Shown piece by piece: positions 3,364 to 51,232 of a stretch of 64,000 bases of DNA. Position 1 is the stretch's first letter. The number at the start of each line of letters is the position of its first letter. This DNA is from Quercus robur (taxonomy: Eukaryota; Streptophyta; Magnoliopsida; Fagales; Fagaceae): contig NC_065538.1 in the NCBI RefSeq assembly GCF_932294415.1, positions 46,166,843-46,230,842 of the forward strand, written 5' to 3'. A program made the translations under genes and the position numbers. The notes below the pieces were generated by a model. The model ran no database searches, was not told the origin of the DNA, and was given only the letters and a program-made list of their open reading frames with translations.

Positions 3364-4262
3364 TTTTGGGTTGTAGGCTCTGCAGTAGGAAGAATTTTTG
3401 TTGCATATCACAATCACCAAACTAAAATTCATCCACACTTTCAGTAGTCCTCTTACTCAACCATGAAACTGAACCAACATAAGATCAAAAGCAACATTTT
3501 TAACATTGATTGAAATATTCCGAATATATTAAAATTTTAAAATAATCCTCTCTAACATAATAAACCATAAAATTTAAGAAAATATGAATATAGCTTAGTT
3601 ACACACCAACTGGCAGAAAAATAAGCAAAACAACTACCACCATCTAAAATAACACATCAGCTCAAGGCAAAACTGTAAAGCACAAAGCATTGGAACTAAA
3701 GTTTTTAACAGGTATTTTCACAAACATCATCTGTGCATTTCCAAAACAACATTAAAATCAAATCAAATATAAATCAGCCACATTTGGGCTAGAGAGAGAG
3801 ATGAGAAAGCCTTAAGATAGGAGGTGACATGGGCAAGCACAGTCGGTGGTGGTGGTGTGGGACTTCGTGGTTGATGCAACCATGGAGATTCGGCCATTTT
3901 TGTCCCACAGAAAAGTATGGTAGAAACAGAGATTTTAAAGTTTGGTGAAGCTGAAGAAAAAATGGAGAAAATGAACAGAGAAAGTGAGCTAAAGAGAAGA
4001 GAAAAGGGAGAAAATGGAGTAAGCCTTTAGTGTTCTCCGCCGCTTGTCTTCTGCCTCTGCTTTGTTTTGTTTTCTTTATGGCTTTTAAGCCATTAAGTTG
4101 AGAACCCTACTGAGAAAATGGAGTAAGCCTTTAGTTATATTCCTTATTTTTATTGATGTGGGCCAGGTGTTGCTTCATGACCCGCCAACTCAAATATGCA
4201 AATTTTAAATATGCTAGCAATTCAAACGGTAACAGACGTTAACAAAGTCTCCTTTATTACGA
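3364..4262. other. Gene-free AT-rich stretch
   Basis: I see no convincing coding sequence. A minus-strand exon-like stretch near 3830-3900 has a short 'ccatggagattc' similarity to 32079-32090, but no frame extends from it. Confidence 0.4.
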
Positions 4263-4621
4263 CTAGCCTCTAAGCACGCGCTCACGCGCGTGCTCAGAGG
4301 CTCTTCTATTTTTTGGATAAGGGTTAATTTAGAGCATTTATTATAATTTGGGATTACTATATTTTCTAATCACAAAAAAAACCTAGGGTGTGATGAGTGT
4401 CATGTGTGGAGAAATAATTTTCCAATCACACCCCTAGATTTTTTTGTGATGAAAAATTATTGTGATTGGAAAATTATTTCTCCACACATGACACTCATCA
4501 CACCCCTAGGTTTTTTTTGTGATTAGAAAATGTAGTAATCCCAAATTATAATAAATGCTCTAAATTAACCCTTATCCAAAAAATAGAAGAGCCTCTGAGC
4601 ACGCGCGTGCTCAGAGGCTAG
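4263..4621. repeat. 359-bp palindrome whose two ends both look like Helitron 3' termini
   Basis: Two arms of about 160 bp run outward from a loop near 4426-4461 and are near-perfect inverted copies. Each outer end carries a GC-rich hairpin (gcctct..gagc acgcgcgtgc tcagaggc type) and CTAG. The left end is preceded by A at 4262 and the right end followed by T at 4622, so both satisfy the Helitron 3' rule on opposite strands. The same ~80-bp 3' tail closes the Helitron at 49449-50281. The arms could fold into a long RNA hairpin if transcribed. It could alternatively be a foldback MITE that has borrowed these ends. Confidence 0.75.
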
Positions 4622-5956
4622 TTTTTTGCTAATAAATTTTGTAAGGTTATATGTAATGAATAAATAAGAAAAGAGGAAAATTATCTTATGAGAGATTCTC
4701 ATGAAACCTCTCTCCTACATTACGTGTGGGTTTCCTATACTGTTGTTACATGTCTCCCACAAACCCACCTAAAATGTTTTTCCTTTTGATATGTTTGTAG
4801 TCATTTTGTTTGGAATTTTTTTTTTTAAAGCTTCATAAAATTTATTTGTTACTAAAATTTTGATCCGCCTTATATTTTTCTTTTTCACAATCTCCCTACT
4901 AAAATGTTTGGATAATCAAATTTAATGGTTACTAAAATATACTCAGAATTATCTATATCACTCTTAGCTAACTTGCACTCTCAAATGACAAAAAATAAAA
5001 AAATAAAAAGGGAATAATATAAAAAATAAAAAATGAAGAATTTAATGCAACATAAAAAATGAAAAGAATTCTAAAATGAAAGAAAGAAAACAATCAAACA
5101 AAATGGTATATGCCATTCAGTTAGTAAAATGTAAACAAAATGATTTCAAAAATTTGTTTGTGCCCTCTACTAAGTCCATAATCAAAAGGTAGTTTCTCAA
5201 TAAAATGAATAAATGGTAAAAAAAAGTCAGCTACTTACAATACATAATATTTACTTTAAAAAAAATACATCTCTCTTAGATCAAAAGCCAGGGCAGTCAA
5301 TTGTTCTCCCATCTTGCTAATATCCTCATGTTCTTTGCACATGTACATAACATCTGCAAGAAAAAAAAAATGGTAAGACCTGGGCTCCACACAAAGCACA
5401 AAATGGTGTTGTAGAATAGAGGCCAAAGATGCAAATGTTCAATCCGAAATAAAACCAAATAAATTGTGCAAGCAAAGGAATGATCAGTGGCACAACCATC
5501 CATTGAGTTCCATTGATTTTCTTATGAAATCAAAGAATTAATGGGATTTTGAGGAATGCTCTGCATATTGGGTTCCACAGTTTGCTAACAGCACCACACG
5601 TGGTCTTGCCTAGCTTGCAATTGAGATTAAATCCATTTAAATTTTTGTTCAAAAAAATTCTAAAATAAATTTATTACAACATAAATAAAAAAGAAACCCT
5701 ACTCACCATATATTCTGTATGACAATGGTTGCAACCCGAGGCATTAAAAATTGGATAACAATGAATGGAACTCAAGAGAAGACACGTTGAGAGCAAAAAC
5801 AGATACAATATTTTAAAGCATCAATTGAATGTAAGAAATAGAAAACTAAAAACATTATAAGTAAAAGAATAATATTTTCTTATATACTTATCCGGATAAT
5901 CTTGGAAGTCAAGTAATGAAGTCTTTTGTTATTCCAGTGCATTAATATTCTCTTCG

Positions 5957-5991
<35 letters not shown>

Positions 5992-6080
5992 ATATATCCA
6001 GAAGAAGAAGAAGATGAAAAGGAAGGAGGATATAACATGAAACTTAAATAAAATAAAATAAAAACTGGATAAGCAAAAGA
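4622..6080. other. AT-rich sequence without genes; long poly-T at about 5959-5990
   Basis: No exon-like or conserved frame is visible. The minus-strand frame at 5297-5503 has no recognisable domain and looks accidental. Confidence 0.4.
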
Positions 6081-6082
6081 AG

Positions 6083-7050
6083 TTAAAGAGAAGTTAAAAT
6101 TTTTAAATTTGATAGTAAAGCAATTTCTTAGGAGTAAAACATGGGAGAGTGGAATTCAAACAATTTGTTAGGAGTAAAATGTGGGAGTGGAATTCATACG
6201 TGTTAAGGTTTTTTTTTTTTTTTTTTTTTTTTTCAAAATAGAAATGTGGTAGATAATTTTTTTGATACAACGTGGCTTTTTTCATTAGGTTTTTTGTTTT
6301 CAATTTTTATCAATTTAAGATTTTAAACCATTTCTTATGATTTAGAGATAAAGATGAGTTTATTAAATTAAGGGTATTTCATTAGGTTTTTTTTTTACTG
6401 AACGTGAGGTTTTTTCTAAGAATAAAATATTAGAAATTTTTTTTACTAAACGTGAGGTTTTTTTTAAGAATATAATATTAGAAACATGTGTTAGAATAAG
6501 TGGGTTAGTAGAATTGTTCCTATTTTGTAGGTAATGTTTTGTCAAATTTATCTAAAATTTAGGACTCTTTAAATTGATAATTTTACATGTCTAACCCTAC
6601 TATTTTACATGTCCATTTCAATGACTCCTCAATGCAATCCAAAAAGTTTGTGCATACGTGAACCTAAGAGAGATAAAAGAATTAGGTAACCAAGTATTAT
6701 TATTATTATTATTATTATTTTAAAAAAACTTTAATTAACAAACCAACGTTAGCATGCATGTTATTAAAGAGAAGTTAAAATTTTTTAAATTTGATAGTAA
6801 AGCAGTTTCTTAGGAGTAAAACATGGGAGAGTGGAATTCAAACAGTTTGTTAGGAGTAAAATGTGGGAGTGGAATTCAAACGTGTTAAGGTTTTTTTTTT
6901 TCTTTTTTCTATTTTTTTTTTTGAATTTGAAAAAAAAAAGGGTTGGCCAGAGTTTTTTTTTTTTTACAAAACGTAGGATTTTTTTTTTTTTCAAAATAGA
7001 AATGTGGTAGATAATTTTTTTGATACAACGTGGCTTTTTTTGTTTTCAAT
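6083..7050. repeat. Dispersed direct duplication (6083-6300 and 6769-7040)
   Basis: A block running from 'gagaagttaaaatt' through 'ggaattcaaac' and a T-tract to 'gatacaacgtggc' occurs twice with few differences. The second copy has gained an extra T/A-rich stretch of about 80 bp (6900-6980). An (ATT)n run at about 6699-6718 lies between the copies. Short frames here are translations of T-tracts. Confidence 0.7.
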
Positions 7051-7114
7051 CACCACCAACATTTCAAAATTAAATTTAAAAAAAAAAAGAAAAAAAAAAG
7101 AGTTAACGTGATAC

Positions 7115-7145
<31 letters not shown>

Positions 7146-7345
7146 ACTCAAGGTTGCTACATACCTAAATAAAAAAATTTAACGCCAAAAACATATACAT
7201 TCAGTCACCTCCAACATTTCAAAATTACATTTAAAAAAAAGAAAAAAAGGATAGTTAACGTGATACATTAAAAAAAAAAATGTAGAACTCAAGGTTGCTA
7301 CATACCTAAATAAAAAAATTTAACGCCAAAAACATATACAATGAT
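7049..7345. repeat. Tandem duplication of a ~155-bp unit with (AT)n runs
   Basis: Two adjacent units each contain 'caacatttcaaaatta', 'gttaacgtgatacat', 'gaactcaaggttgctacata' and 'aacgccaaaaacatataca'. They differ mainly in A-tract length and an (AT)n run at about 7114-7138. A further (AT)n run follows at 7360-7384. Confidence 0.7.
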
Positions 7346-7350
7346 GGTAA

Positions 7351-7381
<31 letters not shown>

Positions 7382-7572
7382 TATGAAGAAGGAAAAAAAA
7401 AAAGAAGTGAAGTGAGGAAGGAGAAGGAAATAGTAATTGATCATTTATATGAAACTATTTTTATTTCAATTCAAAAATTTTAAATAAAATGTAAACAAAG
7501 GCTATTAAAGGAGGTAAGGGAAGTCATATTGTTTAACTGTTTACGAATGATTTTGAATGCTTCTTTTGTAGC

Positions 7573-8562
7573 ATAAGGCAGCCCTGTCTTTGGATCACAA
7601 TACCTACAACATGAAATGACAATTCATTAAGAAGTGCAATGGTAAAGTATATGAAGGAACTATTTATTTCAAAATTACATTTAAAAAAAAGAAGAAGGAA
7701 AAAAAAAAGTAGAACTTAAAGAAAGTCAATCATAAACAAAAGAAAAGAAAATAAAGAGGAATTTGCAAAAAATAGAACCTGAAAATTTGTTGAAGCCTCT
7801 GACAGTAAATGTCTTTAATCTGAAGAAAAAGAAAGGAGGATGTAGAGCTAAACTAAATGTCTTCAATCTGAAGAAAAAAAAAATGAGAGAGAGAAAGTGA
7901 GATAGAAACTGCAAAGCGTACGTGAGTTTGTGGTTTTAAAATGTAGGAGTTTTAATTTACATATCTATCCTCGGTAGTTGAAAACTTGTAAGTGGGTATG
8001 ATGAGAGTATCTTAGGCATGAAAAATGTGGAATCCAAACAGGGGAAGCCCCTTAAATAGTAGTATAGATAAGGTAGCCCTGTCTTTGGATCACAATACCT
8101 ACAACATGAAATGACAATTCATTAAGAAGTGCAATGGTAAAGTATATGAAGGAACCATTTATTTCAAAATTACATTTAAAAAAAAGAAGAAGGAAAAAAA
8201 AAATTAGAACTTAAAGAAAGTCAATCATAAACAAAAGAAAAGAAAATAAAGAGGAATTTGCAAAAAATAGAACCTGAAAATTTGTTGAAGCCTCTGACAG
8301 TAAATGTCTTTAATCTGAAGAAAAAGAAAGGAGGATGTAGAGCTAAACTAAATGTCTTCAATCTAAAGAAAAAAAAAATGAGAGAGAGAAAGTGAGATAG
8401 AAACTGCAAAGCGTACGTGAGTTTGTGGTTTTAAAATGTAGGAGTTTTAATTTACATATCTATCCCCGGTAGTTGAAAACTTGTAAGTGGGTATGATGAG
8501 GGTATCTTAGGTATGAAAAATGTGGAATCCAAACAGGGGAAGCCCCTTAAATAGTAGTATAG
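7573..8562. repeat. Two tandem 495-bp units, junction at a Helitron-like 5' end
   Basis: Unit 1 (7573-8067) and unit 2 (8068-8562) are nearly identical and both start with 'ataagg' plus a 'agccctgtctttgg' segment. Each ends with the sequence that, on the minus strand, is a Helitron-like 5' terminus. The identical 62-residue frames at 7726-7914 and 8221-8409 are only this duplication and are not genes. Confidence 0.85.
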
Positions 8563-8563
8563 A

Positions 8564-9190
8564 TAAGCTGGCAGTTCAAGTGAGGTAAGCAAATTTTAAT
8601 GTGCTAACATACTCCGGGACTAGGCAATAATTTCCCTACCATCACATAATATAATCCAATAATAATAATTATACATAGAGTGTTATTATTATTTTTTTTT
8701 ATATACTTATTACCTACAGTTAGAACGTTAGATAGAAAATAAATAAAATAGAAAAAAAAAAAATTATGGCTAAAGCCTACAATATGTGGCCTGTGTTCGT
8801 GGAAAAAGACAAAGCTTTGAAGAGTTTGAAACATTTGTTCAAAATTTTCAACTATGTCAGAATTATTCACAACTCTCGCTCTCTTTCTCAAACTCTTTTC
8901 ATTTCGATTTTTGTATTCACAAAGTAATACAAAAGAAGAGAAGACGAAGAAGAATCACTTTACTCTCAATCTCATATCTCTCATCTCTCTCTCTTTGTTT
9001 CTCAAAATTTCGTCATTCCAATTCTTGTGTAGGTCACAGAGTAAAGAAGGTATGATCGGTTTTGTGTCTGCAACCAGGGATGTGGTGGAGAGTGGTGGAC
9101 CGGTGGTATCATGTTTATTCTTTTATTTTGTACCAGTTAGGTGTCAAATTCTCAAAATCTAGTTTTTTTTAGCTATCCAGTGACTGGTGA
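8564..9190. other. AT-rich spacer with CT-rich leader-like segment
   Basis: Positions 8870-9050 are CT-rich and look like a plant 5' leader. The frames there have no recognisable domain. The hAT element begins just downstream, so any gene that started here is interrupted. Confidence 0.35.
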
Positions 9191-15841: not shown

Positions 15842-17297
15842 GTAATTCTACGGTACCCTCCCCAAAAAAAGGGGGTACGGTACCCACTAGTAGGTAGCCT
15901 ATTACATCAGGTTACTTTTTTCTCACATTTGACGGTTTCATGTATACATTGTGCAATTCCAACATCATATTTGACAATTCTTTTTTCACATTTGATGGTT
16001 CCTTTCTCACATATGACGGTTCTATTCTCACATTGTGTAGTTCCAACATCACATGTGACAGTTTTTTCTCACATTTGGTGGTTTCCTTACTTTTTTTTTT
16101 CTCATATTTGACGGTTCCATCCTCACATTGTACGGTTCCAACATTACATATGACAGTTCTTTTGTCACATTGGATGGTTCCCTTACTTTTTTCTCACACT
16201 TGACAGTTTTATGCTTACATTGTGCAGTTCCAACATCACATGTAACAGTTCTGTTCTCACATTTGGTGGTTCCCTTACTTTTTTCTCACATTTGACGATT
16301 TCATCCTAATATTGTGTAGTTCCAACATCACATGTGACAGTTCTTTTCTCACATTTAGTGGTTCCCTTACTTTTTTCTCACATTTGACGGTTCCATTCTC
16401 ACATTGCGCAATTCCAACATCACATGTGACAGTTTTTTCTCACATTTAGTGGTTCCCTTACTTTCTTTTTCTCACATTTAACGGTTCCATCCTCACATTG
16501 TGCGGTTCCAACATCACATATGACAGTTCTTTTGTCACATTGAGTGGTTCTTTACTTTTTTCTCACACTTGACGGTTCCATCCTCATATTGTGCAATTCC
16601 AACATCACATGTGACAGTTCTTTTCTCACATTTGGTGGTTCCCTTACTTTTTTCTCACATTTGGTGGTTCCCTTACTTTTTTCTCACATTTGATGGTTCC
16701 ATTCTCACATTGTGCAGTTCCAACATCACATGTGACAGTTTTTCTCACATTTAGTGGTTTCCTTACTTTTTTTTCTTACATTTGACGGTTTTATCCTCAC
16801 ACTGTGCGGTTCCAACATCACATATGATAGTTCTTTTGTCACATTGAGTAGTTCCCTTACTTTTTTCTCACACTTGACGATTCCATCCTCACATTGTGCA
16901 ATTCCAACATCACATATGACAGTTCTTTTCTCACATTTGACGGTTCCATTCTCACATTGTGAAGTTCCAACATTACATGTGACAATTTTTTCTCACATTT
17001 GGTGGTTCCCTTATTTTCTTTTTCTCACATTTGATGGTTCCATCCTCACATTGTGCGGTTCTAACATCACATATGACAGTTCTTTTATCACATTGGATGG
17101 TTCCTTACTTTTTTCTCACACTTGACGGTTCCATTCTCACATTGTGTAGTTCCAACATCACATGTGACAGTTTTTTTTCTCACATTTGGTGGTTCCCTTA
17201 CTTTTTTCTCACATTTAACGGTTCCATTCTCACATTGTGTAGTTCCAACATCACATGTGACATTTTTTTCTCACATTTGACGGTTCCATCCTCATAG
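15842..17297 (+). repeat. Satellite-bearing element, copy 1: hairpin terminus plus ~92-bp minisatellite
   Basis: The left end is 'taattctacggtaccct' followed by a stem-loop (CCCTCCCC, A7, GGGGG type) and 'gtacccactagtagg'. From about 15920 a unit recurs roughly every 91-94 bp, with 'acatcacatgtgacag' repeats near 16045, 16139, 16230, 16326, 16417, 16510, 16601 and onward to 17246. Units alternate between 'cacattggatggttc' and 'cacatttggtggttc' types. The repeat lacks stops in several frames and so yields spurious long frames rich in SHC/TSHVTV strings; these are not genes. The same element lies inverted at 32331-33735. Confidence 0.9.
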
Positions 17298-32330: not shown

Positions 32331-33735
32331 AAAGCGCAGCATGGTGGTACTACTCAATGTAAAGATAGTACCATTAAATGTGAGAGAAAATAAGACAATT
32401 AGGGAATGTGATAAAAGTGCAGTGACATGTGATGCAGGTGCTACATAATGTGAGGATAGTACCATTAAATGTAAGAAAAAAATAAGGAAATTATTGAATG
32501 TGACAAAAGTACAGTTACATGTGATGTTAGTACTACTCAATGTGAGGATGGTAACATAAAATGTGAGAAAAAAAATAAAGGAACTATCGAATGTGACAAA
32601 AGTACAGTAACATGTAATGTTGGTACTGCGCAATGTGAGGCTGGTATCATAAAATGTGAGAAAAAATAAGAGAACCACTGAATGTGACAATAGTCACATA
32701 TGATGTTGATATTGCGCAATGTGAGGATAATACCATAAAATGTGAGAAAAAAAAAATAAGGAAACCATCGAATGTGACAAAAGTACAATTATATGTGATA
32801 TTGGTACTACGTAATGTAAGGATGGTACCATAAAATGTGAGAAAAAAATATGGGAACCATCGAATGTGACAAAAGTACAGTCACATGTGATGTTGGTACT
32901 GCGCAATGTGAGGATAGTATCATCAAATGTGAGAAAAAAAAAATTAAGGAACTACCGAATGTGATAAAAATACAGTTACATGTGATCTTGGTACTACGTA
33001 ATGTGAGGATAGTACCATAAAATGTGAAAAAAGAAGGGAATCGTCGAATGTGACTAAAGTACAGTCACATGTGATGTTGGTACTGCACAATGTGAGGATA
33101 GTACCATCAAATGTGAGAAAAAAATAAAGGAACTACTGAATGTGACAAAAATACAGTCACATGTGATGTTGGTACTGCACAATGTGAGGATTGTACTATC
33201 AAATGTGAGAAAAAATAAAGGAACCACCAAATGTGACAAAAATACAGTCACATGTGATGTTAGTACTGCACAATGTGAGGATGGTACCATCAAATGTGAG
33301 GAAAAAAAATAAGGAAACCACCGAATGTGACAAAAATACAGTCACATGTGATGTTGGTACTGTACAATGTGAGGATGGTACCATCCAATGTGAGAACAAA
33401 TAAATGAACCACTGAATGTGACAAAAGTACAGTCACATGTGATGTTGATACTGCGCAATGTGAGGATGGTGCCATCAAATGTGAGAAAAAAGAAGAAGAA
33501 GAGAATCACCGAATGTGACAAAAGTACAATCACATGTGATGTTTGTACTGCACAATGTGAGGATGGTACCATCAAATGTGAGAAAAAATAAGGGAACTAC
33601 CGAATGTGACAAAAGTACAGTTATATGTGATGTTAGTACTACACAATGTGATGATGGTACCATCAAATGTAATGTTTTGGTAACCTGGTATAGCAGGTTG
33701 CCTACTAGTGGGTACCGTACCCCCAAAAAAAGGGG
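32331..33735 (-). repeat. Satellite-bearing element, copy 2 (inverted relative to copy 1)
   Basis: Units recur about every 92 bp, marked by 'acatgtgatgttggtac' near 32517, 32609, 32697, 32790, 32884, 32978, 33068, 33160, 33252, 33345, 33436, 33530 and 33620. The right end (33675-33735) carries 'gtaacctggtatagcagg', 'cctactagtgggtaccgtacc' and a C5-A7-G6 hairpin, the reverse complement of the start of copy 1. Several overlapping minus-strand frames are translations of the repeat. Unit consensus differs from copy 1 (for example 'ggtac' for 'ggttc'), so the arrays evolved separately. Confidence 0.9.
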
Positions 33736-34064
33736 GGTACGCTAGAATTACCCCTTATATATAAAATGATTGCCTAATTTTAATTACTCATTCCGTTCAT
33801 TGAATTTTTATTTTCTTTAGTTGGTAAATAGTTAATATGGTAATTGGGTAGATAACTTGTGATTGCTTAACTCAATCAAGACTAGTTCCTTTTCATATGG
33901 GGTTGCTATGCTTTATCTTATTTTATTTTATTTTTCATTATTTGAATTACTTTAATTTGATTGATTAATAAATTCTATAAAAAAAATAACATAACAAAAA
34001 ATTTTTAATTCTTGCAATTGTCATTTAATTTTCATAAATTTTAGAGTTAGGGTTTTCGTGACTT
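33736..34064. other. AT-rich spacer between satellite element and duplicated GLR flank
   Basis: Simple AT-rich sequence, nothing recognised. Confidence 0.4.
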
Positions 34065-35035
34065 TAAGTTAGGATATTTGGAAATAAGGAAATTCAGAAA
34101 ATAATTAATTTGGAGAAGATTTAGTCTTTAAAAATGAATGAAATATCACATTTACATAAGTGAGCTAAGTCAAATGAAATTGGAATAGTTAATTTAGGAC
34201 ATATCTTAAGGGGCACTTAAAAATAAAATCTTTCGTAAACAATGAGAATCAAATCATTTTTAAGTCATTTTCAAATTCAAAATTGGGAAAGATAATGGTT
34301 TTAAATAAATTAAATGCTAAAATATTTTTTAATAAAAGATATAGTCAATTAGGTTTAAATTTCAAATTTGATTCTAATTCATTTTAAGTCAATTTAAGTT
34401 TTGAACTTCTCTCTCTCTCTGACTCTACGTAGTCTCTGACAGTAGAAGTTATGTACTCACCTTTCCTTGTGAGTTTTCAACCTCTCTAATCTGCTTTCTT
34501 ATCAAATTAGAATCTCATGAAGTAGCTGTTTCTGAACAGCAGGCTCAGTTTAGCATTTTGTTCAGATAATTTGAAATCTTGGTTATCAAACCATTAATGT
34601 CTCATTATGTCAATCTTTCTAAAAAAATCGAGTTCAATTCCTTCAACCATTGCAAGGTCAATGTTCTGATATCAAATGTAATGAAAAATTTATGAAGTTG
34701 GACTCTTAGGGAAATTAGTGGTAAATAGACCAATTTGAGGTAGTTGACTTCCAAGAAAAGAGAATGAGAGAAACAAATAGGTTGAAAGGAAAGAATAAAT
34801 GTATATGACTAGTTTCTTATTGAGGTTCAATAATATTGACACATATTTATACAGGCTGGTTTACATCGAGTTCTCTAGTTAGTTTACTCAAACTCGTAAA
34901 ATTAATTGAGTGAGACAACTAGCTAACTCACCAGCCAACTAATTATAACAAATTCTTAACAACCCTTTACAATACCCCTTAACCCTTCCAACAATTAGAA
35001 GTAAATATTACAACATTTGGAGTCATTAAAAAAAT
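34065..35035. repeat. Duplicated segment, copy A (GLR 3' flank)
   Basis: The segment matches 49436-49448 plus 50282-51717, and 59858-60245, in the same orientation and order, with scattered substitutions. It includes a (CT)n run at 34410-34420 and the 'aacaaataggttgaaagg' and 'gctaactcaccagccaactaatt' stretches. It ends about 50 bp before the GLR stop codon, so it is the GLR 3' flank. It lacks the insertions found in copy B and so acts as an empty-site reference. Confidence 0.9.
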
Positions 35036-43254: not shown

Positions 43255-44612
43255 GAGTGGCCTGTTTGGTTTGCTCCTAACTCAAAACTCAGTTCTCATA
43301 TTTCATTTCTCATCATTTAAACACAGTTTTCATATTTTATATCTCTATCTCTACTTTTTCCTTAACTCTATCTTATTTTTGTTTGGTTTCAAATATGGGT
43401 GTGCTTAACTCAAAATTTTGACAAAATGGTGGAGCCCATGTACTGTGTAGATCAGAACGGTAACATGTCTCTCCTCCATCTCTTTCATTTTTTTTCCTTC
43501 TCCTCTTTCACAAAGCCTGAAACATTGAAACCTTTCTCCTCCCATTTTTGGCCTTTACCACCTCCAACAACCCACAAACCCACCAATTACAATTCTCAAA
43601 AACCCAACCCACTATCATTGTTTTGCATCCACCACTGTACATATCACAAAAAATCAAACCCATCCACCATAGCAAATCCACCAACACCTTCAACATCATA
43701 GCAAATTCTTTTACATATATAATGAAAATAAAAATAAATACAAACACTAGAAAAAATTATCCCACAAAATCCACAACTCCAAGCCCAAAAAGCACACCTT
43801 AACCTGATTAAGTGTGTATTTGGCTCCAGCTTAAAAAGCCAACTTATTTTACTGTTCAACTTATTTTTGCTACTATTCATGGGTCTCATTGCACTTTTTT
43901 GTACTATTCATGGGTTCCATTGTACTATTTCAGCTAACTTTTACCTTTATCTACAATACTTTCAGCAAAAATTTTTCAGTTTCAGCAAAATAAGTGGATC
44001 TCAAACAAACCTTAAAACACAAATCACAACTGAAATCGAAGCCCTCTATGATCTCTGCGATCATCACGTGAAGAAAAAGAAAGAATGAAGAAGAATAATA
44101 AGAAGCTGAAAAAAGAAACCAGAGTGAAGAAGAAAGAAAAAAAAATGAAAGAACCCAGCCATGAAGAAGAATTAAAAAAAAAAAAAGAAAAAGAAAAGAA
44201 AAGAGAAGTAGATGAAAGAACCCAACTTGAAGAAGAAAAGAAAGAAAGAAAAGAGAAAAGAGGAGAGGGAGAGAAGAAATATCAGTACGGTGGAGAGAAA
44301 AAGTGAAGAAGAAAAAGAGGTTTGAGAACGTGTGTGGTCTTGAGTGTCTAACCGTGGGTCCCATAATCATCAAATATTTACAAAAATACCTGGTATCTCA
44401 GTTTTCAGAATTTGGAAACTCCTAAAATTTGTTTTCAATTCTCATCATTCTAACTCTTTTTTTTTTTTTTTTTTTTGGAGTTTTGAGTTATGAAAACTCA
44501 ACTCAAAAACTAAACCAAACAACATACTTTGAGTGGGTCCCACAATTTTTGAGTTTTGAGTTATGAAAACTGAGTGATATAACTCAAAACTCATCAAACC
44601 AAACATACATCC
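43255..44612. mobile_element. Foldback-type element with nested MITE (43811-44020)
   Basis: The left part has 'ctgtttggtttgctcc' and 'aactcaaaactcag'. The right part has 'ctgagtgatataactcaaaact' and 'aaaccaaacatac', an inverted arrangement, with repeated 'gagttttgagttatgaaaac' units near 44479 and 44551. Inside, 43811-44020 is a MITE of the 'tatttggctcc/ggatctcaaacaaacc' kind sharing 'actattcatgggt' and 'ttcagcaaaa' with those at 50331-51117. Positions 44070-44310 are an A/G-rich low-complexity run whose Lys/Glu frame is not a gene. Confidence 0.5.
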
Positions 44613-47433: not shown

Positions 47434-49440
47434 CAATATCTTTTTATTGAATGTGAATTCTAACAAATCCATCATTGGATTACATTTTCTTCTTACATCC
47501 TTTATACTTGCAAAATTTCCAAAAAATCAAAAATCAATAACTATGTCATCAATCAATTGTTAAAATTGCAAGTTTTTGTAGTCTTAAATTATGCATCATC
47601 CATTTTTCGCTGAATGTACACAATTTTATTACATCAATGCACTTAAATTTTTCTACAAATCTAGACAATTTGTACATCATATGTACTCAATTTATAATAG
47701 AATTTATAAAATTCTATACATTCAACTTATTCCTTTTTCCCAAAATGTACACAATTCTGTTTGATCAATGCACTCAATATCTTTTTATTGAATGTGAATT
47801 TTGACAAATCCATCACTGGATTACATTTTTTTTTACATCTTTTATACTTGCAAAATTTCCAAAAGATCAAAAATCAATAACTATGTCATCAATAAATTGT
47901 TAAAATTGCAAGTTTTTGTAGTCTTAAATTATGCATCATCCATTTTTCACTGAATGTACACAATTTTATTACATCAATGCACTTAAATTTTTCTACGAAT
48001 CTAGACAATCTGTACATCATATGTACTCAATCTATAATAGAATTTATAAAATTTTATACATTCAACTTATCCATTCTTCCCAGAATGTACACAATTCTTT
48101 GTGATCAATGCACTCAAATTTCTCTAAGAATCTAGACAATCTGTATATCAAATGTACACAATTTTTCATTGAATTTACTCAATTTTATACATTCATCATA
48201 TCCATTTTTTCACTAAATGTACACAATTTTTTGTTGGATTTACAGAATTTTGTACATTTAGCTATCCATTTTTTACAATTCTATACAAAGAACACATTCA
48301 TTTTTTATAAGAATCCATGAAAATTTTGTACTAGAAAGCACGGGTGTGGCTCCAGGGCTATTGCACCCGCACCCGATACTTGGCGACGTGCTGATTCACC
48401 TTTTTTTTTTTGGGTTTTCCAATTCATGCTGATTCGGGCGGAAACCAGTCGAAATTGGCCCGATTCGGGCCGAAATTAGTGTTAAAAAAAAAAAAAGTAA
48501 AAAAATTGTGTCAAAACTCTCTCAATGTTCATTCTTTTTATCCCTTCTTGAGTTTCACTAATTCTATTCTACCCATGGCATCAAATATAACCAAAAAAAA
48601 TCCAAAACAAAACAATGAACATTGAGAGAGAGAGAGAGAGAGAGAGGGTAAAAAACGAAGTGATCTTTGATAATTCTTTGAGCCTTCTTCAATCTTCACA
48701 TATTGCAGCACAAAGAGAGAGGCAGATAGAGTGTTACAAGTAAAAGAATAAAACATAGAGAAAGAACGGAAAACCAAGAGCTGTATACGGGTAGAAGAAG
48801 TGGGGTAAGTGAAATCTTAAATGGGAAAGTAATAAAAGTTTGCCACGTTATTCTTCCTTTAACGCTAGTGCCACGTTTTTATCAACCACGAATATAAACA
48901 TGAACAAACAGTGAAAATAAAAAGGTACTTTTTTTTTTTTTTTGTTATAAGTTATTAAAAAAAAGGTACTCTATTTAATAATATATAAATATATATTTAC
49001 CATTATATGAAAAAATATGATTAGTAATATATAAAAAATATAGATAAAAATATATTTAATAATTTAGTAAAAAGCATATTCTGCTGCACCCGCACTTTAA
49101 TTTTCAAAAATTGTCGAGTTGCCACAGCACACCCTCACTCGCACCCGAACCCGAATCCGAATCCGCACTTGTGTTTCCTAGAATTCGTACATCAAATGTA
49201 CACAATTTTATTTATTTATTTTTGTGGAATTTACTTAAGTGTATACATTTAAAGTATCCATTTTCCCTGAATGTATACAATTTTGTACTATGAACGCTCT
49301 CAATTTTTTTTAAGAACACATCAAATGTATAAAATTTTTAATTGAATTTATATATTTAACTGATCCATTTTTTACTGAATGTACACAATGCTCTGCATGA
49401 ACGCACTTAATTTTTTTTAAGAATCTAGAAAATCATTAAG
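47434..49440. repeat. Diverged tandem repeat, ~343-bp unit ('tgaatgtacacaatttt' motif), split by an insertion
   Basis: Two adjacent long units start with 'caatatctttttattgaatgtg' at about 47434 and 47777. Shorter derivatives, each with 'aagaatctagaca', 'tgtacatca' and 'tgtacacaatttt', run on to about 48330 and resume at 49182-49440. The interruption at 48331-49181 is a separate element. No coding potential or family is recognised. Confidence 0.75.
48331..49181. mobile_element. TIR element inserted into the 343-bp repeat array
   Basis: Ends CTAGAAAGCACGGGTGTGG and, inverted, CTAGGAAACACAAGTGCGG form an imperfect inverted repeat. Both ends are rich in 'gcacccg' segments. Flanking 8-mers ATTTTGTA and AATTCGTA agree at six of eight positions, which could be a decayed hAT-size duplication. 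The interior includes a (GA)n run at 48624-48646 and no transposase. Confidence 0.5.
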
Positions 49441-49448
49441 TTAGGATA

Positions 49449-49770
49449 TCTATACTATATATAAGAAGATTCCCCTCCTTCAATTGGACTTTTTTCATGT
49501 CAAAAATACCCTCATCAAGTATCCAATATATTTTCTTACAAGTTTTTAAAAAATAGGGTCAATAACGTCACACCAAATTACTTTTTTTTTTTTTTTTTAC
49601 AAGTTCAAACTTGCTTCTTTTTTTATTTATTTATTTTTTAATTTTTTTACATTAAAAACAGACATCTTTAAATTTAGGTTTCATTTTTCCAGTTTCTTTT
49701 CACGTTCTTTAATTCTTTTTCATTTTTTTTATAACTTTTTTCACGTTCTTTTAAATCTTGTACAGCTCAG

Positions 49771-49812
<42 letters not shown>

Positions 49813-50281
49813 TGTGGCTATATTTTTTCATGTTCTTTTTCATTCTATAAGGATGATTTTTTATTTTTATTTTTTTTTTCATTCAACCTATCGGATGAGG
49901 TTTTTTAATTTTTGGATAGAATTATTGATATAGGTTACCGTGGGATGAGGATTAGGTTTTTTTTTTTTTTTTTTTAATTTTTTCTTTCAACTTACGATAG
50001 GTTTTCGTTTTGACAAGTAGGGTTGTGTTTGAAAACATGAGTTAGTGGAAGAGTGGTTTTAACTTATTTTCTTTTAACCCTTCACCTTTAGAAAAGAAAT
50101 TACTGCTTATCTCTAAAGATTATCATTTTGGAGCTCAAAAAAAAAAAGTTTATCATTTTTATTTGTTTGAAAAATAAAAAATATATTTCTAAATTATAAT
50201 AAATGCAAATTATTAACTTTTACCCAAAAAAAAAAAAGAAGGGCCTCTGAGCATGCGCTCATGCGTGTACTCAGAGGCTAG
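49449..50281 (+). mobile_element. Non-autonomous Helitron with empty site in copy A
   Basis: The element starts TCTATACTATATATAAG (49449) after A and ends with a hairpin (gcctctgagcatgcgc..gtactcagaggc) and CTAG (50278-50281) before T. In the 34-kb paralogue the sequence reads 'ttaagttaggata' directly followed by 'tttggaaataagg' (34065-34086). Here the same two pieces flank the 833-bp element, so it entered exactly between A and T with no duplication. The left homology covers only about 13 bp; the right extends for tens of bases before the next insertion. Poly-T runs fill much of the interior; no RepHel coding. Confidence 0.88.
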
Positions 50282-50330
50282 TTTGGAAATAAGGAAATCA
50301 GAAAATAATTAATTTAGAGAGGATTTAGGG

Positions 50331-51117
50331 TCTGTTTGGGATCCGCTTATTTTGTTGAAACTGAAAACTTTTTACTGAAAGTATAGTAGATAAGGTAAAA
50401 GTTAGTTGAAATATACCGTGAGACTCATGAATAATATCAAAAAGTACAATGGGACCCATGAATAGTAGCAAAAATAAGCTGAATAGTAAAATAAGTTGGT
50501 AAAAATAATTTTTACCAAACATACACTTAGTGTGCGTTTGGATTGGGCGTTTTGCCCAATTCGCGCATTCTACGTTTTTTAGTGGGTCCCATGGGTACTG
50601 TTCACTTTTCTACCAAACTCAGCAAAACACAGATTTCTAGGTAAATTTGGGTTCCCCAACACTATTCATACCTTTAAAAATTATTTTGCTATAGTGTTTT
50701 CAGTAATAAGTTTTCAGTTTTTAGCAAATAAGCGGTATCTAAACACACCCTTAGTGTGAGTTTGGATGTTGCTGAAATGATTTTCTCAGTGCGTTTGCGT
50801 TTTAAACAGTGGGTCCTGTGCACTGTTAATGGGACCCATAAGTACAAAATTCAGCAAAATTTTCATTAAAAAAGGGTCCCATGGCACTATTCACACATTT
50901 AAAAATTAATTTGCTACAATATTTTCAGTTTTCAGTTTTCAACAATAAGTGATATCTAAACAGACCCTTAGAGTCCATTTGGGATCAGCTTATTTTGCTG
51001 AAACTAAAATTTTTTTGTTGAAAGTACGGATGATAAATGTAAAATTTAGCTGAAATAGTACAGTGAGACCCATAAATAGTACCAAAAAGTGCAGTGGGAT
51101 CCACGAATAATAGCAAA
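50331..51117. mobile_element. Cluster of four related MITE-like units
   Basis: Units lie at about 50331-50530, 50531-50753, 50754-50970 and 50971-51117 (truncated). They start 'tgtttgggatc' or 'gtgcgtttggat' and end 'caaacatacactta' or 'atctaaacacaccctta'. Units 1 and 4 belong to one subfamily ('cttattttg.tgaaact'), units 2 and 3 to another ('gtgggtcc', 'cactattcacac'). Copy A has only 'tctttaaaaatgaatga' here. No coding. Confidence 0.75.
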
Positions 51118-51232
51118 AATATCACATTTCCATAAATGAGCTAAGTCAAACGAAATAGGAGTAGTTAATTTAGGACATGTCTTAAGGGGCACTTAAAAAT
51201 AAAATCTTTCATGAACAATGAGAATCAGATCA

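Follow-up and report, generated by a model that had tools for sequence, protein, structure and literature searches.

The insert and its flanks

The window analysed here is a 64,000-nucleotide stretch of the Quercus robur genome, lying on contig C5 of a 786-Mb assembly of 42 contigs. It holds two copies of a duplicated region, A and B, and copy B carries an 833-bp insert. A glutamate-receptor-like gene is represented between 36146 and 39724 by frames that have receptor and ligand-gated channel domains, and a plant mobile domain gave a sub-threshold match. Two short-tandem-repeat arrays (15871–17294 and 32341–33724) lie in opposite orientation, are ~73–83% alike, and have units of ~90 bp as judged from offsets. 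The features at and around the insert are as follows.

34064–34089, plus strand: insert-free site in copy A, junction 34076/34077 (paralog comparison)
49434–49435, no strand: putative rearrangement junction left of the Helitron (boundaries of repeat matches)
49448, plus strand: host A at the 5′ edge (37 of 41 family TC starts follow A)
49449–50281, plus strand: almost certainly a non-autonomous Helitron, TC...CTAG, 833 bp (ends, family copies)
50243–50278, plus strand: 3′ hairpin, with an inner 16-nt stem-loop at 50253–50268 and a 9-bp outer stem (folding)
50278–50281, plus strand: CTAG terminus (sequence)
50282, plus strand: host T at the 3′ edge (46 of 46 family CTRR ends precede T)
50282–50328, plus strand: right flank, homologous to 34077–34124 (alignment)

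In copy A, TTAAGTTAGGATA and TTTGGAAATAAGG are contiguous, the right side of the junction beginning TTTGG directly after TTAAGTTAGGATA. Their direct joining had been placed at 34065–34086 in the initial annotation, and it holds at 34064–34089. In copy B the same two strings stand at 49436–49448 and from 50282, with 833 bp between them. This insert begins with TC (49449–49450), ends with a hairpin and CTAG, and lies between A49448 and T50282 without a target duplication, so that the insert and the target described from the first reading stand as drawn, and the Helitron rules named there hold at both 49449 and 50281. Because the insert starts with T, copies A and B by themselves are compatible with two insertion points one base apart (A|T or AT|T); other copies of the family settle it as A|TC...CTAG|T.

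The right flank of B matches A at 94% over ~48 bp and, past further inserts in B, at 92% over 116 bp and 91.5% over 400 columns; judging by these alignments, the two right flanks are clearly paralogous. Another insert breaks the right flank of B at 50324–51121; its ends are repeated (50325–50476 and 50968–51121, 81%), and it is related to 43839–44016. On the left, the match between A and B extends over 13 bp only, as had been observed, and this short homology can be attributed to a separate rearrangement junction at ~49434. The flank at 49182–49434 matches C5:46305233, C5:46371086, and C5:46426328 at 88–90%, and these matches end at 49433/49434, where the paralogs go on with their own sequence. 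It appears that a local repeat was joined here, ~14 bp before the Helitron, to the last A-like bases. The junction at 49434/49435 unites two different local repeats.

A dispersed family with shared ends

A genome search with the B insert gave 70 matches from the best 40 of 1347 candidates, falling mainly into three patterns: matches to B ~1–70 only, matches to B ~697–833 only, and long matches within B 1–629. A 24-bp core of the 3′ end has 443 matches genome-wide at two or fewer mismatches, and its reversed control has none. The short elements of the family are represented by the S-type consensus, a 347-bp majority sequence from 20 copies of ~325–360 bp. When models of the two ends were scanned over 63 of 78 loci (the other 15 overlapped these and were left out), 66 5′ ends, 114 3′ matches, and 34 end-paired copies were found. 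Of 57 5′ matches starting at one of the first four positions of the model, 41 begin with TC and 16 do not; A precedes 37 of the 41 TC starts and not the remaining four. At the other end, 46 of 111 3′ matches end in CTRR, and T follows in every case while positions +2 and beyond are mixed, a count made after the 65 matches without CTRR, many of them antisense to the near-palindromic hairpin, had been dropped. The family is dispersed in the genome with shared ends. Homology running past the ends of the insert in other copies had been a concern of the initial annotation; across the 63 loci the ends are common and the flanks diverge, except in head-to-tail arrays.

Two such arrays consist of ~345-bp Helitrons. 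In L076 (C39:12972000–12977500) a 3′ end passes straight to TC in a G/TC junction, and a shortened 5′ end is also seen at a junction; in L077 (C6:46346500–46351500) two junctions have an identical 4-bp spacer. A strict CTAG-to-TC junction pattern with zero mismatches allowed returned no matches, although the arrays were seen directly. G/T junctions of tandem Helitrons have been published for maize and bat, as excerpts of the reports describe (PMC2267711; PMC5876387). Nested insertion also occurs within the family: on C41, a Helitron nested in locus L059 (positions 4023–4723) occupies, to the base, an A|T site at which L061 and L062 have no insert.

Mosaic structure of the insert

Comparison with the S-type consensus and with four copies of a related, rarer L-type (two on C41 and one each on C6 and C40) divides the B insert into four parts, all by alignment.

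49449–49518, plus strand: 5′ terminal block, 70 bp, like both S-type and L-type
49519–50073, plus strand: interior, T-rich, close to the four L-type copies
50074–50144, plus strand: apparent mosaic transition zone between L-type and S-type
50145–50281, plus strand: 3′ terminal block, 137 bp, S-type, widely repeated in the genome

The first 70 bases agree with the four L-type copies at 61–62 of 70 positions and with the S-type at a similar level. Likeness to the L-type then spans B 71–625 (38–41/42 at B 71–112 and 36–38/40 at B 561–600), the switch to S-type falls within B 626–696, and B 697–833 agrees with the S-type consensus at 124 of 137 positions versus 83 to 94 of 137 for the L-type copies. 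In the global alignment the consensus was placed at the 3′ side of B, leaving the S-type column at zero for B 1–200 and 340–420, and for these intervals the local alignment is to be used. The L-type copies that serve as the yardstick limit the comparison in that a clean 3′ end of L-type elements was not found among them, the copies being interrupted by nested elements. The closest interior relatives of B are only ~77% alike, and no second copy of the hybrid was found, both among the best 40 of 1347 candidates. The interior has a single stop-free frame of at least 110 codons, of low complexity, and there is no long frame in B. By these alignments B is evidently a mosaic, with an L-type interior and an S-type 3′ block.

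The most likely origin of the mosaic is read-through or the capture of a nested element, at about even odds against recombination: transposition would have started from an L-type 5′ end and terminated at the 3′ end of an S-type element close by. Both routes have precedents, since read-through past a weak 3′ end makes hybrids (PMC4778049) and nested elements make hybrid Helitrons (PMC3288121), as far as the excerpted texts of these studies go. A substrate for read-through is available in the nested or adjacent elements of L029, L059, L064, L076, L077, and L078. If L-type and S-type copies instead exchanged sequence by homologous recombination or gene conversion, with no read-through, a substrate was available for this too, as the two types are recognisably related around the switch; this route is a serious contender, if somewhat the less probable one.

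The 3′ hairpin

The folding energy of the hairpin at 50243–50278 is −13.4 kcal/mol, whereas shuffled sequences average −4.83 (z −5.10) and none of 200 shuffles is as good. Published descriptions, in their available excerpts, place a hairpin of 16–20 nt at 10–15 nt before the end (PMC13286980; PMC6591975), and the inner stem-loop of B, which is 16 nt long and ends 13 nt before the terminus, fits this 10–15-nt rule. The 9-bp outer stem is non-canonical: it pairs the usual spacer up to the C of CTAG, so that the hairpin taken whole stops 3 nt short of the terminus. The stem read from the S-type consensus is an unbroken 17 bp with only AG unpaired. The EAHelitron finder looks for a hairpin 2–10 nt before the end, according to the part of its description that is available; a finder that requires a spacer in front of CTAG could overlook families with an extended stem or place their ends wrongly.

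Covariation was considered as further support for the hairpin and rejected. Over 50 distinct ends, the paired cells amount to 84.6% versus 83.9% in shuffles (75 of 500 shuffles as high) and the covariation score is 0.224 versus 0.216 (101 of 500 as high), so that covariation of the hairpin pairs is no higher than in shuffles. The structure does beat slid versions of itself, a comparison in which the structure was itself derived from the consensus. The hairpin is a property of the source sequence; the inserted copies are without visible constraint on it. In maize and rice little evidence was reported that 3′ palindromes have any special status or are required (PMC2575219, in excerpt), and deletion of the Helraiser hairpin gave lower transposition and higher read-through, in the passages available from PMC4778049.

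RepHel elements and a palindromic 3′ end

The genome contains 126 matches to Helitron_like_N, several of which may fall in one gene, with open frames up to 1491 aa. The 3′ flank was read at five RepHel loci, and one of them, L089 on C38, has the 3′ end of the family (96.9 bits, E 1.1e-29), positioned after a Pif1-type helicase tail (Pif1_2B). The 3′ flanks of L085–L088 are without the family 3′ end, L086 having instead a canonical-looking hairpin some nucleotides before CTAGT. The last 42 nt of L089 agree with the S-type consensus at 42 of 42 positions, and those of B at 34 of 42. Since the last 30 nt of B agree with L089 at only 23 positions, the match to a RepHel acting in trans appears clearer for the family than for B.

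The end of L089 forms one arm of a palindrome of 382 bp (384 bp with the flanking A and T), the arms of which are alike in 93% of ungapped columns; the opposite arm consists of a second 3′ end, inverted and with a CTAG|T of its own. In the 4 kb upstream of the L089 RepHel, the family 5′ end was not found. A query consisting of the helicase tail and the palindrome was then compared with the genome, and the best 40 of 1453 candidates were scored. Among these, 21 other loci have a match of more than 1 kb beginning in the first 510 query bases. In 14 of the 21 the match begins in the tail and extends far into the palindrome (query end at least 2179), and 14 of the 21 start 2172–2198 bp downstream of a same-strand Helitron_like_N match (one of them via a neighbouring piece), the same spacing in L089 being 2197; nine loci combine the spacing with the reach into the palindrome. 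Several of these best-40 matches end exactly at query position 2384, the T after CTAG. This collinearity of tail and palindrome in other loci, together with the exact ends, indicates that these RepHel elements include the palindrome and that it lies at their 3′ edge. A search with the palindrome alone, of which the best 40 of 1446 candidates were scored, matched both strands at all 40 loci, the copy in the window included; the best palindrome matches tend to be whole palindromes, and the frequency of second-arm loss is not given by them.

The copy in the window belongs to a larger Helitron on the opposite strand.

4263–8563, minus strand: second Helitron, 4301 bp, 5′ TC at 8563 and 3′ CTAG ending at 4263 (insert-free copies of the target repeat)
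4263–4621, minus strand: 3′-terminal palindrome, 359 bp, two inverted family 3′ ends (alignment, folding)

Read on the minus strand, this element lies between an A (T at 8564) and a T (A at 4262), and its 5′ end reads TCTATACTACTATTTAAGG. Its joined flanks match six loci at 90–92%, continuous across the junction without the insert, and five more at 73–76%; these loci are copies of the repeat that the second Helitron entered, and as such fix both of its edges. A direct duplication of 504 bp (7569–8072 and 8065–8567, 98.4%) covers its 5′ end region, so the element has two tandem 5′ ends. Its palindrome is 88.8% identical to that of L089 over 384 columns, the arms are alike in 96% of ungapped columns, and 4263–4622 folds at −183.5 kcal/mol (z −37). 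This larger related Helitron in the same window had escaped the initial annotation, as had the mosaic structure of B and the rearrangement behind the short left homology.

It is an evenly balanced proposition that a lineage of RepHel-coding plant Helitrons and its large non-autonomous relatives end in a palindromic double 3′ terminus of 359–382 bp, each end with a hairpin and CTAG|T, and that this is kept as the working end; it may act as an extra-strong terminator or be readable from either side, and B and the S-type would carry one arm of it. What is unusual in the family is its palindromic 3′ end; B itself is ordinary. No description of a double inverted Helitron 3′ end was found in the open-licence literature, in the portions available, which is not proof of absence. 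If the palindromic end is real and general in the lineage, the debated role of the 3′ hairpin in termination becomes testable, because a single genome contains this end both with one arm and with two.

Origin of the insert

Sites without the insert were sought with a 311-bp query around the junction of copy A, which gave six matches: A, two pieces of B, C5:46322287 (97%), C5:46435348 (98%), and C3:34158411 (69%). The last three are all continuous across the site without the insert, and the insert-free sites are thus four paralogs (A and three others), not alleles. Whether an insert-free copy would have a different junction had been raised earlier; all four have the expected junction region, and in one of them, C3:34158411, the base after the junction is A instead of T.

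With three more paralogs lacking the insert, the insert-free state is most simply taken as ancestral and the insert as gained by B. A precise deletion of an ancestral insert from A, leaving the junction as a deletion or excision footprint, would account equally for A and B alone, from which the direction is undecidable, but two near-identical paralogs and a diverged one on another contig are also without the insert, and the ends of the insert recur as a dispersed repeat; on the three further paralogs this reading was rejected, and it is highly improbable. Still less probable is another kind of transposon (a MITE, hAT, Mutator-like, or Helentron/Helitron2 element) with TC and CTAG by chance, since B, though as short, T-rich, and free of a plausible gene as MITEs are, has neither target duplication nor inverted ends, on which ground these classes were rejected, and A/T flanks recur across dozens of family copies.

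The segment at 49449–50281 is therefore read as a non-autonomous Helitron insertion, with a probability of about 0.96 that applies to the insertion and not to each step of its proposed history. B has the 5′ TC, the 3′ CTRR, the A|T position without duplication, and the dispersed copies with the same ends by which Helitrons are known, and its inner stem-loop is the hairpin expected of them. The terminal inverted repeats and target duplication of MITEs are absent, the two ends of B being unrelated by eye; for one such comparison of class with the B sequence, the definition came from an excerpt of PMC5148889. The element most likely entered the B copy of the duplicated region after B split from A. 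It probably moved by rolling-circle transposition, in trans, through the RepHel of palindrome-ended relatives. In this scheme, a RepHel protein (an HUH nuclease joined to a Pif1-type helicase) supplied by those related elements would nick the strand at the 5′ TC and peel it off through the interior; peeling would stop at the 3′ hairpin and CTAG, and the freed strand would be joined between A and T. B is a canonical TC/CTRR, A|T-inserting plant Helitron of an ordinary kind, and its documentation is unusually good. With several insert-free paralogous sites and family ends readable to the base, it provides a clean textbook case of a small Helitron.

Comparison with known Helitrons

Canonical plant Helitrons (Helitron1, with maize HelA and wheat Xuan-Feng), as excerpts of PMC2267711 and PMC13286980 present them, share with B the TC and CTAG ends, the A|T target without duplication, and the 3′ hairpin, and like this family they include non-autonomous copies beside RepHel-coding ones. 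They differ from it in that the stem of B runs outward into CTAG, on the descriptions in those excerpts, and in that some relatives of B end in a palindrome of 359–382 bp. The maize and bat head-to-tail arrays resemble L076 in having CTAG joined directly to TC in a G/T junction (PMC2267711, in part); the 4-bp spacer in L077 and the shortened 5′ end in L076 set the present arrays apart.

Helraiser/Helibat is alike in its TC and CTAG ends, A|T target, hairpin terminator, and new 3′ ends created by read-through. However, its palindrome, 19 bp long, is separated from the end by 11 nt, and a long inverted double 3′ end is not described in the available sections of that report (PMC4778049). Maize helitron_mc2 and other multi-terminus Helitrons are likewise hybrids formed from nested Helitrons, and in helitron_mc2, according to the excerpt of PMC3288121, only one 3′ terminus has an intact CTAG. 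In L089 and in the copy in the window, by contrast, both of the inverted 3′ ends keep CTAG|T.
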